Assembly: GCF_001457025.1 (NCBI RefSeq)
Contig: NZ_KQ758600.1
Coordinates: 496,001 to 560,000, forward strand
Source of the DNA: Pseudarthrobacter enclensis
GTDB taxonomy: Bacteria > Actinomycetota > Actinomycetes > Actinomycetales > Micrococcaceae
Direction of reading: 5' to 3'
DNA length: 64,000 nucleotides
The translations under genes were made by a program, and so were the position numbers. Shown here piece after piece: positions 17,138 through 21,506 of the stretch. The notes below the pieces were generated by a model. It was not told the origin of the DNA, did not search any database, and saw only the letters and a list, made by a program, of their open reading frames with translations. Each line of letters starts with the position of its first letter. Within the stretch, counting starts at the first letter, position 1.

Positions 17138-19657
17138 CTAGGCCGGAACGATGTTGACCAGTTTAGGGGCACGGACGATCACGGTGCGGATGCCGCGGCC
17201 GTCAAGCGCACGCTGGACGTTCTCCGAGGCCAGTGCCAGTTCGCGGAGCTGGTCCTCCGAGATGTCCGGGGAAATTTCCAGCCTGTCACGGACCTTGCCC
17301 TGGACCTGGACGACGGCGGTGACGGTGTCCTGCACCAGCAGCGAGGCGTCGTGGGCAGGCCAGCCGGCGTTGGCCACGGACGCCGGGTGGCCCAGCACGT
17401 TCCACATGTCTTCGGCCGTGTAGGGCGCGAACAGGCTGAGGATCACGGCCACCGCTTCGGCGGCTTCGCGGACTGCGGGGTCGGCTGCGCCGGCACCGGA
17501 GTCGATGGCCTTGCGGGTGGCGTTCACCAGCTCCATCAGCTTCGCCACCACCACGTTGAACTTGTTGGCGTCCAGGAGTTCGGCGGCGTCGGCGATGGTC
17601 CGGTGGGTCACGGACCGCAGTGCCCTGTTGCCGGCGCCGGCGTCGGTTCCGGGTGCGCTGGTCACGTCCTGTGCCAGGCGCCAGGCGCGGGCCAGGAACT
17701 TGGCGGATCCGGACGGGGAGACATCGGCCCAGTCAACGTCGTCCTCGGGCGGGGAGGCAAAGACCATGGTCAGGCGGACGGCATCCACACCGTACTTGTC
17801 CAGCTGTTCGCCGAGGTCCACGCCGTTGCCCAGTGACTTGCTCATGGCCTTGCCGCCGTTGAGCACCTGCCCTTGGTTGAGCAGGGCGCTGAACGGCTCG
17901 GTGGCGTCGATCATGCCGAGGTCGTGGATGACCTTGGTGAAGAAGCGGGCGTACAGCAGGTGCAGGATGGCGTGCTCGACGCCGCCCACGTACTGACCCA
18001 CCGGCATCCAGTTGTTGATCTTCTCGGGATCGAACGGGCCTTCGGTGTACTGGGGCGAGACGAACCGGAGGAAATACCAGGACGAGTCGACGAAGGTGTC
18101 CATGGTGTCTGTGTCCCGCTTGGCAGGTCCGTGGCAGCTGGGGCATTCCACGTTGACCCATGCTTCGGCAGCAGCCAGCGGGGACGTGCCCTTGGGGGCC
18201 AGGTCTTCACCGCGCAGGTTGGACGGCAGGGTCACCGGAAGCTGCTCGTCGGGAACAGGGACCTCGCCGCAGGACGGGCAGTGGATGATCGGGATGGGCG
18301 TGCCCCAGAAACGCTGGCGGCTCAGCAGCCAGTCCCGGAGGCGGAAGTTGACGAATTTTTCGCCCGTTCCCTGGCGTTCCAGGATGGCGATGGCGGCGGG
18401 AATGGCCTCGGCCTTGGGCAGCCCGTCCAGTTCGCCCGAATTGATCAGGGTCCCCTCCCCCGCGGTCGCGGTGCCGGACACTGCGGGGTCTTCCTCGCCG
18501 GTGTCCAGGACGGCGCGGACCGGCAGGTCGAACGTGCGGGCGAAGTCGAGGTCGCGCTGGTCGTGCGCGGGGACCGCCATGATGGCGCCGGTGCCGTAGT
18601 CGGCGAGGACGTAGTCGGCGGCCCAGACGGGCAGCTTCTCGCCGTTAAGCGGGTTGACGGCGTAGCGGCCGGTGAAGACGCCGGTCTTTTCCCGTTCGGT
18701 GGACTGGCGTTCGATCTCGGAGAGTGCCTTGACCTTTTCGCGGTATTCGTCCAGCGCAGCGGCGTGTTCGTCCGTGACGAGCTCGACGGCGAGGGGCGCG
18801 TCGGCGGCGACGACGAAGAAGGTGGCCCCGTACAGCGTGTCGGGGCGGGTGGTGAACACCGTGACGTCCTTGGCGGGCTTGCCGGCGTCGGCCTCGACCA
18901 CGAAGTTCACGTGGGCACCTTCGGACCGGCCGATCCAGTTCTTCTGCATCGCCAGGACGCGTTCGGGCCAGTGGCCGCGCAGCTGTTCCATGTCATCGAG
19001 CAGCCGGTCGGCGTAGTCGGTGATCTTGAAGTACCACTGGTTGAGGGACTTCTTGGTGACCGTGGTGCCGCAGCGTTCGCAGGCACCGTTGACCACCTGT
19101 TCGTTGGCCAGGACCGTCTGGTCTTTGGGGCACCAGTTGACGGGTGAGTTCTTCCGGTAGGCCAGTCCGCGCTCGTAGAAGCGTTTGAAGAGCCACTGGG
19201 TCCAGCGGTAGTACCCGGGGTCGGAGGTGTGCAGCCTGCGGGACCAGTCGGCGGAGATGGCGTAGCGCTTGAACGACGCCGCCTGGGTATCGATGTTCGC
19301 GTAGGTCCACTCGCTGGGGTGGGCGTTGCGCTTGATGGCGGCGTTCTCCGCCGGCAGGCCGAAGGAGTCCCAGCCGATCGGGTGAAGGACATCGAAACCC
19401 TGCTGGCGCAGGTAGCGGGCCACGACGTCGCCCATGGCGAAGGCTTCGGCGTGGCCCATGTGCAGGTCGCCGGACGGGTAGGGGAACATGTCCAGCACGT
19501 AGCGGCGTTCCCGCGATCCGTCGTCGACAGGGGTGAAGACCTTGAGGTCCTCCCACACCTGCGGCCACTTGGCCTCCATCGCGGTAAAGCTGTACGTACC
19601 CTCCGCGGGTACTTCCGTTGCTGCTGCTCCGGTCTCTGTCTCCGGCTGAACGCCCAC
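17138..19657 (-). CDS. leuS: Leucyl-tRNA synthetase
   Basis: LeuRS charges tRNA-Leu with leucine. The 839-residue class I enzyme has the HIGH-type motif HMGH at residues 66-69, an editing (CP1) domain, a zinc-binding insert ([10 protein letters not shown] and CPSCHGPAK) and the KMSKS-type motif AMSKSLGNG near residue 615. The GTG start follows AAGAGG. A leader with a leucine-rich mini-ORF and a terminator hairpin lies upstream, so expression is probably controlled by attenuation. It heads the series leuS, degV, comEA, comEC, holA. Confidence 0.98.
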
Positions 19658-19740
19658 TGCTGCCCTCTTCTGTTCTGCTACGGCATCTGTGCTGCCCTAT
19701 AGGCCTGATCCCCTGCTGCCGGCCCGGTTTGCTCCCGGAC

Positions 19741-19770
19741 ACACAAAAGCCCCTCGCCAAGGGAGGGGCT
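19741..19770 (-). terminator. Leader terminator (attenuator) upstream of leuS
   Basis: On the minus strand an 8-bp stem AGCCCCTC/GAGGGGCT is followed at once by TTTTGTGT, an intrinsic terminator located before the leuS start rather than after a gene. It sits 35 bases beyond the stop of a leucine-rich leader ORF. A second small hairpin (TATCCA/TGGATA, 19781-19797) lies between them. Confidence 0.8.
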
Positions 19771-19805
19771 GCCGCTCAGCTATCCACGTGATGGATAACC
19801 GGCGG

Positions 19806-19832
19806 CTAACTAAGCAGAAGGATCGCACGCAT
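19806..19832 (-). CDS. Putative leuS leader peptide MRAILLLS
   Basis: An eight-codon ORF encodes M-R-A-I-L-L-L-S with the successive leucine codons CTT, CTG, CTT before a TAG stop. It is followed by a hairpin and then an intrinsic terminator ahead of leuS. That is the layout of classical ribosome-mediated attenuation: a shortage of charged tRNA-Leu would stall the ribosome on the leucine run and favour read-through. Translation could begin leaderless, six bases after a TAAGGT box, or from the AAGG. I could not model a definite antiterminator pairing by eye. No T-box features are seen. Confidence 0.75.
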   Translation of the reverse strand: MRAILLLS

Positions 19833-19838
19833 AGATCT

Positions 19839-19844
19839 ACCTTA
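19839..19844 (-). promoter_or_regulatory. Possible -10 (or Shine-Dalgarno) of the leuS leader
   Basis: TAAGGT on the minus strand fits TANNNT and ends six bases before the leader-peptide ATG. The same TAAGGT-N6-start arrangement precedes metK. The AAGG could instead act as a Shine-Dalgarno sequence, so the reading is ambiguous. Confidence 0.4.
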
Positions 19845-19853
19845 GCGCAAGTC

Positions 19854-19897
19854 CACACCCCTCAGCGTAAGTCGCATACGAGCGGCTGAGGGGTGTG
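19854..19897. repeat. 13-bp perfect inverted repeat upstream of the leuS leader
   Basis: CACACCCCTCAGC (19854-19866) is complementary to 19885-19897 around an 18-base loop. It lies just upstream of the presumed leader promoter. It may be an operator. If transcription starts farther upstream, the GAGGGG of the near arm could pair with CCCCTC of the leader terminator and prevent it forming. Confidence 0.65.
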
Positions 19898-19905
19898 ACG
19901 ATTAA

Positions 19906-19980
19906 GTTGATGGCAGCCGCACCTCGCCCGGGTGTGGTGGGCACCGCGAAGCGGGCGGGGCAGGTGCGGCTGCCATCAAC
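19906..19980. terminator. Long hairpin downstream of glpK
   Basis: A perfect 19-bp stem (GTTGATGGCAGCCGCACCT, 19906-19924, with 19962-19980) has a further inner CGCCCG/CGGGCG pairing. It lies 11 bases beyond the glpK stop and ends in TTAAT on that strand. It probably ends glpK transcription and shields leuS. It is unusually long for a terminator and might be a mobile palindromic repeat. Confidence 0.65.
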
Positions 19981-19991
19981 GATGGGTCACA

Positions 19992-21506
<1,515 letters not shown>

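Follow-up and report, generated by a model that had tools for sequence, protein, structure and literature searches.

A putative leucine-sensing attenuator with abutting hairpins upstream of leuS in Pseudarthrobacter enclensis and related Actinomycetes

Candidate attenuators of leuS were predicted in 2005 in Streptomyces avermitilis and Streptomyces coelicolor, according to a study (PMC1262725) that also relates that altering the regulatory codons of S. coelicolor ilvB had no effect. In Streptomyces lividans, a second report (PMC8079986) describes leuL2, which encodes the peptide MRAVRLLLSEPR, as leaderless by RNA-seq and as carrying a hairpin and a uridine stretch. Related arrangements precede ilvB in corynebacteria. 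For Corynebacterium glutamicum ilvBNC, adjacent antiterminator and terminator hairpins are proposed to contest three boundary nucleotides, and mutations support the terminator (PMC11857589). A reporter carrying a Corynebacterium ilvB leader gave high expression in minimal medium and low expression in rich medium (PMC10272879).

Here we describe a leader upstream of leuS in the window, by which we mean the whole 64,000-nucleotide stretch of Pseudarthrobacter enclensis DNA that was analyzed. The presumed regulated gene, leuS for leucyl-tRNA synthetase, lies on the minus strand at 17138-19657 (TIGR00396, 968.7 bits), as do all leader features given below. Its upstream neighbor, glpK (19992-21506), is on the same strand, and the leader region falls between the two genes. 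An earlier note on this DNA had pointed out a peptide MRAILLLS with CTT-CTG-CTT in a row, and this frame is read directly at 19832-19806 as ATG CGT GCG ATC CTT CTG CTT AGT TAG. The three leucine codons occupy 19820-19812, ending with the CTT at 19814-19812, and a 5-nt spacer, AGTTA (19811-19807), separates them from hairpin A (19806-19771), which is supported by folding and covariation and is the putative sensor and antiterminator. Hairpin A is abutted by terminator hairpin T (19770-19748). The earlier note also had an intrinsic terminator ahead of leuS, and its stem AGCCCCTC/GAGGGGCT is indeed followed by TTTGTGTG, with a U-rich tail, TTTGTGTGTC, read directly behind T at 19747-19738. A short LLL frame with a terminator within 90 nt occurs once in the 64-kb window, whereas 0 of 40 first-order resamples contained one.

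A hairpin followed by a U-tract terminator is predicted after the leader, as in the Streptomyces-type leuS leader leuL2. In the window, hairpin A has a predicted energy of -24.3 kcal/mol (z -6.25), a stability reached by 0 of 200 shuffles, and T one of -14.5 kcal/mol (z -2.50), reached by 3 of 200. The “small hairpin” mentioned by the earlier note is the stronger of the two. The tail behind T deserves separate mention: the sequence TTTTGTGTGTC (19738-19748) is often followed by CCGGG in the genus, and its conservation exceeds what a U-tract needs. This tail has one match in the window when at most one mismatch is allowed (0.46 expected), and the extended version, GAGGGGCTTTTGTGTG, occurs exactly once in the genome, with three more matches at two mismatches.

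The hexamer TAAGGT at 19844-19839, which resembles a -10 element and ends 6 nt ahead of the leader ATG, suggests from its position that the transcript would be leaderless. A sigma-70 consensus scan requiring two hexamers returned no promoter at the leuS leader, where only the -10 hexamer is visible. Among 181 leader elements measured in this and other genomes, a TANNNT motif ends 6 nt (166 elements) or 7 nt (15 elements) before the start codon; this count of 181/181 is an upper bound that is biased upward, because the leader-finding scripts favor an ATG and a -10 hexamer. An SD-like motif was found in 18 of the 181. This set was assembled after seven script picks were removed by eye (L037, L052, L139, L187, L188, L191, and L192), of which L191 was readmitted with another start and L037, L052, L187, and L188 were kept as variants with other starts. 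We rejected the idea of a further conserved promoter downstream of T, since TANNNT appears anywhere between T and the leuS match in 11 of 160 loci. The earlier note had held that a transcription start downstream of the terminator would speak against attenuation; at the sequence level, no promoter element is conserved other than the one upstream of the leader. Just upstream of this promoter element, the window also carries a perfect 13-nt inverted repeat, CACACCCCTCAGC/GCTGAGGGGTGTG (19854-19897). A motif akin to this repeat is found at the same place in several relatives, and the pattern occurs once in this genome.

The leader was then followed across increasingly distant relatives. It is present in 30/30 genus loci and in 80/80 named loci, mostly from Arthrobacter, Pseudarthrobacter, and Paenarthrobacter. 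In the family sample (88 loci, from 88 of 149 genomes sampled), the leucine-rich frame and terminator, whose conservation the earlier note had proposed to check, were recovered at 59 loci: 50 by a strict rule, 8 by a looser look, and L049, whose leader reads MNFSLLLS. Hairpin A is absent from three of these 59 (L037, L052, and L053). Members are shared among the genus, named, and family sets (for example, L005/L061 and L049/L138). Among regions from the order and class, 25 of 60 carry the leader (21 strict and 4 by the looser look), and two regions of this set, L232 and L241, are cut short by contig ends. By genus label, 20 of the 31 in the family sample have the leader and 11 do not. The labels whose leuS has no such leader are g23-g25, g27, g31-g35, g37, and g42, and the 28 loci from these 11 genera yielded a single weak terminator candidate (L140).

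A covariance model of the leader, R1, finds leuS as its sole site in this genome at E<=1. At E<=0.001, 68 of 197 class genomes contain R1 matches, with Streptomyces-like leuS loci among them. The published peptide MRAVRLLLSEPR is encoded at L219, L221, and L222, and the peptide at L220 differs from it by one residue. The earlier note saw no T-box elements, and an Rfam search of the window gave no family at or above its gathering score. A T-box riboswitch was likewise rejected for 20 other loci, which include one from each of the 11 genus labels lacking the leader and which gave no Rfam match at gathering score.

This distribution also bears on the simplest dismissal of the element, namely that T is merely the terminator of glpK and that the short frame arose by chance. 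Because glpK is on the same strand, T would stop glpK transcripts too. However, a 25-nt inverted repeat at 19906-19980 already follows glpK, no resample contained a comparable frame and terminator, and in many genera leuS is preceded by the whole conserved set of promoter hexamer, frame, A, and T. We consider this explanation highly implausible. Attenuation of leuS by a translating ribosome is supported, as far as comparison of sequences can speak to it, by the joint conservation of the leader, its leucine codons, A, and T. To that extent the proposal of ribosome-mediated attenuation in the earlier note stands, whereas alternative folding in the style of trp is unsupported, as detailed below.

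The comparison of leaders reveals which features are held constant. The N-terminus of the peptide varies freely (for example, MHTFLLLS, MYFLLLLG, MNVALLLT, and MDHILLLG), and the leucine codons hold their position. Some leaders have lost the run of leucines yet retain leucine in the last place (MYSQRDLA, MHFQRDLV, MHSKHNLV, MVLRPVLR, and MVLRPALR). This pattern, in which the run is gone and a leucine codon persists in the last place before the hairpin, is seen at L186, L187, L188, L177, and L179. The loss of the leucine codons in relatives, which the earlier note would have taken as evidence against its proposal, was thus not observed: the last of them is kept. Among 86 distinct leaders, this last codon is CTT in 72, CTA in 7, CTC in 6, and CTG in 1; in 31 long high-GC3 frames of the window, CTG accounts for 59% of leucine codons and CTT for 7.3%. 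The last CTT is therefore the probable control codon of the leuS leader.

Spacings are similarly constrained. In 159 of 180 elements, the last leucine codon lies 5 nt from the first paired base of A; this distance is 4 nt in 13 elements and takes another value in 8. A and T abut directly in 91 of 180 elements and are otherwise separated by 1 nt (75), 2 nt (12), or 3 nt (2), as measured with A folded only as far as T, so that any overlap between the two hairpins is invisible in these values and was assessed separately. The leader stop codon ends at or before the first base of A in 144/180 elements and inside A in 36/180, and this variation indicates that the place of the stop is not critical.

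Both hairpins are further supported by patterns of base substitution. In an alignment of 45 leaders, 92.2% of cells pair compared to 83.0% after shuffling, and the covariation score is 0.249 compared to 0.107, with 0 of 500 shuffles as high (kinship among the leaders is ignored in both comparisons). Of the 10 pairs counted in A, 8 vary on both sides, and 5 of the 7 pairs of T are invariant. When fold-independent anchors were used, all five outer pairs of A were present in 85 of 93 elements, compared to a mean of 66.7 and a maximum of 73 when the arms were re-dealt; these 93 are distinct by their hairpin arms, again with kinship ignored.

The earlier note regarded the locus as a complete attenuator layout. 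In a textbook attenuator, a ribosome stalled at the leucine codons would allow a separate stem to form that is mutually exclusive with T. The order of leader, hairpin, and terminator is like that of trp-type attenuators, and the Streptomyces leuS leader was described as a classical attenuator that has an antiterminator (PMC1262725). However, no such stem was found here, and the completeness claimed in the earlier note is not upheld. The 5′ arm of T pairs with upstream RNA at a mean of -4.9 kcal/mol, which is weaker than with shuffled upstream RNA (-7.4 kcal/mol). In this assessment, which covers nested pairing without pseudoknots, 0 of 93 elements fall in the strongest 5% (mean z +1.09), and a long antiterminator pairing was rejected on this count. 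The same test applied to Escherichia coli leaders gave -18.7 for thrL (0 of 200 shuffles as strong), -11.8 for leuL (10 of 200), and -12.0 for trpL (20 of 200), and its power is thus clear for thrL and modest for leuL and trpL. Weighing these observations, we view a textbook attenuator as quite unlikely at leuS.

Folding under simulated ribosome positions, a check on alternative structures that had been proposed in the earlier note, did not reveal a switch either. The mean pair probability of T is 0.96, 0.98, 0.96, and 0.95 in four states, comprising no ribosome and leaders blocked to three points, and it drops below 0.5 in at most 2 of 93 elements across these states. T is thus expected to fold with the 5′ arm of A either blocked or free, and opposition of T by A is not evident from nested secondary structure. 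Two other pairings were not retained. Extension of T by pairing of the 3′ arm of A with the U-tract gave a mean native-minus-shuffled difference of +0.19 kcal/mol (sd 2.15, n 93), and pairing of the leucine codons with the 3′ arm of A, noticed by eye in the window, was set aside.

The explanation we favor, with a probability of about 0.64, is that leuS is controlled by ribosome-mediated transcription attenuation in response to leucine, with folded A hindering T at their boundary. Transcription would begin at the leader ATG, and ribosomes would load on this ATG directly. When Leu-tRNA is scarce, a ribosome would wait on the leucine codons, above all on the last CTT, leaving A just outside the ribosome. 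Hairpin A would then stay folded with its base against T, T would fail to close properly, and RNA polymerase would enter leuS. With ample Leu-tRNA, the ribosome would pass the last leucine codon and unwind A, allowing T to form and transcription to stop. We infer the leaderless start, the response to leucine and, because A and T share no whole competing arm, that A acts against T where they touch. That folded A would correspond to the ON state is suggested by feedback logic and by analogy with related Corynebacterium ilvB leaders (PMC10272879), for which mutations that weaken the terminator have also been studied (PMC11857589). The absence of the leader from 11 of the 31 genus labels, and the lack of effect of altered regulatory codons described for S. 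coelicolor ilvB (PMC1262725), count against the favored explanation.

The conserved spacing can be related to the dimensions of the ribosome, whose mRNA entrance lies about 11 nt from the first base of the P-site codon. With the last leucine codon in the A-site, the entrance would therefore be at the first base pair of A. It follows that a ribosome waiting on any of the leucine codons would leave A folded, and that reading the last codon would start its unwinding. Both the constant 5-nt distance and the persistence of the final leucine agree with this picture.

How A might oppose T at the point of contact is suggested by the model for C. glutamicum ilvBNC, a “fast” attenuator in which the two hairpins would swap a few shared boundary bases. 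In the window, the spacer bases GUU can pair with AGC, the first three bases of T, and A is predicted to take them before the 3′ arm of T has been made. The base of A can be extended by at least 3 pairs into the foot of T in 23 of 95 elements, compared to 6.2 expected from shuffled spacers (kinship ignored), and mutational support for such a contest has been published for C. glutamicum (PMC11857589). However, the other 72 of the 95 elements do not allow an overlap of at least 3 bp, and the spacer bases would sit under the waiting ribosome. We judge this exchange unlikely as the account of the leuS leaders in general. It could also be regarded as one form of the favored boundary mechanism rather than a true rival to it.

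The three relatives that lack A (L037, L052, and L053) do not fit the abutment mechanism simply. They encode MAYFLG with a single CTT, and T begins 4 to 5 nt after this leucine codon. Judging from this arrangement, the absence of A should abolish or reverse regulation. These loci favor a system of opposite sign, in which a ribosome moving past the leucine codons would promote readthrough and leucine scarcity would lower leuS expression, because T is placed where a ribosome passing the leucine codon would open it. However, this arrangement occurs at three loci only, T in the window begins about 40 nt or more past the last leucine codon, and related ilvB leaders give high reporter expression in poor medium (PMC10272879). 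A reversed sign at leuS thus appears very unlikely, and we retain the reading in which folded A permits leuS expression.

Similar leaders occur before other genes of branched-chain amino acid metabolism. Among the 71 R1 matches listed, we inspected 20 that were chosen because they lie away from the listed leuS positions. The proteins that follow comprise 11 with leuS-like N-termini (by eye), 5 citramalate synthases, and 3 acetolactate synthases, and the sequence at L270 ends too soon for an assignment. Citramalate synthase (cimA) follows at L268, L285, and L286 as assigned by TIGR00977, at L281, and at L284 as judged by eye. The corresponding leaders are rich in isoleucine (MLHHVIIIR at L268, MQSALIIT at L281, MQHRHIVIP at L284, MHRTAIIIN at L285, and MAIVSIIIN at L286), and in these class genomes they have a hairpin-terminator layout resembling that of the leuS leaders. 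Acetolactate synthase follows ILVV leaders at L269 and L272 (TIGR00118) and at L271 (by eye). The genome under study has its own example before ilvB (L340, G000:C1, ilvB at 947071-948765), where the leader MTFVTAGTVVVLTKRVAH ends its control codons with CTT and is followed after 5 nt by a hairpin and an abutting terminator.

When the spacing was left free, the last branched-chain codon was separated from A before cimA by 5 nt in 8 frames, 8 nt in 6, and 2 nt in 1 (15 frames), and before ilvB by 5 nt in 12, 2 nt in 3, 4 nt in 1, and 7 nt in 1 (17 frames). This scatter indicates that the 5-nt rule is looser before ilvB and cimA than before leuS. An abutting hairpin pair is present at 22 of 30 cimA loci and 18 of 30 ilvB loci. 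With the 5-nt spacing imposed, the last codon ends in U in 17 of 18 ilvB picks compared to 4 of 10 cimA picks. Eleven ilvB and cimA leaders (13 chosen, with two lacking T dropped) resemble the leuS leaders in the antiterminator test, with a mean z of +0.68. We tentatively raise the possibility, which we hold to be doubtful at present, of a general actinobacterial design that dispenses with a separate antiterminator. In such a design, a leaderless mini-gene would place its last control codon 5 nt before a hairpin that abuts T. With this codon in the A-site, the first pair of the hairpin would be at the mRNA entrance of the ribosome, so that the hairpin would register whether the codon had been read, and when folded it would block the terminator through contact instead of pairing. 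The mini-gene would be re-coded for leucine before leuS, for valine, leucine, and isoleucine before ilvB, and for isoleucine before cimA. In the same tentative scheme, the last control codon would be CUU, AUU, or GUU before leuS and ilvB, and AUU or AUC before cimA.

The leuS attenuator is not new in kind, since precedents from Streptomyces have been published. With the present analysis, a switch known in print from a few Streptomyces species is also seen in many genera of the Arthrobacter family and in other Actinomycetes, the last CTT is named as the probable control codon, and exact spacings are given. In the open-licence literature, screened mostly by listings, we found no earlier description of the leuS leader in Arthrobacter relatives, of the 5-nt spacing between codon and hairpin, or of isoleucine leaders before cimA. 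The novelty is modest for leuS itself, and that of the geometry would be greater should the reading with abutting hairpins prove correct. In that case, the logic of this attenuator would differ from that of textbook mutually exclusive hairpins. It would also offer a means of detecting, in high-GC genomes, those codon-sensing leaders that would be missed by searches based on antiterminators, such as the isoleucine leaders of cimA.

Like the thr, leu, and trp attenuators of E. coli, the leuS leader combines a peptide rich in the regulated amino acid with a subsequent intrinsic terminator. In E. coli, a separate stem competes for the 5′ arm of T (clearly for thrL, more weakly for leuL and trpL), whereas this was not seen before leuS here. 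The actinobacterial LEU element before leuA also places a leucine leader before a leucine gene, but the base of its pseudoknot is described as pairing with the leuA Shine-Dalgarno sequence (PMC1262725), unlike the leuS leader. Similarly, the S. lividans leader LeuL1 is described in PMC8079986 as being without a typical terminator, which again sets it apart.

A close likeness is to the Streptomyces leuS leader, which shares the gene, the peptide core MRA..LLLS, a leaderless start (here judged by sequence), and a hairpin followed by a U-stretch terminator. The Streptomyces frame runs on (SEPR*) and stops inside A, whereas the frame in the window stops at the first base of A. The Streptomyces leader is called “classical” in its description, and yet no exclusive antiterminator was found in the tested class elements, Streptomyces-like ones included. 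With C. glutamicum ilvBNC and the Corynebacterium ilvB-II motif, the leuS leader appears to share adjacent antiterminator and terminator hairpins and a CUU control codon. In the C. glutamicum system, the leader begins one nucleotide away from the start of the transcript, and the leuS leader appears alike in this respect. In the published model, the C. glutamicum hairpins have 3 nt in common, whereas A and T of leuS abut, with a possible 3-bp overlap in those 23 of 95 elements, the window included.
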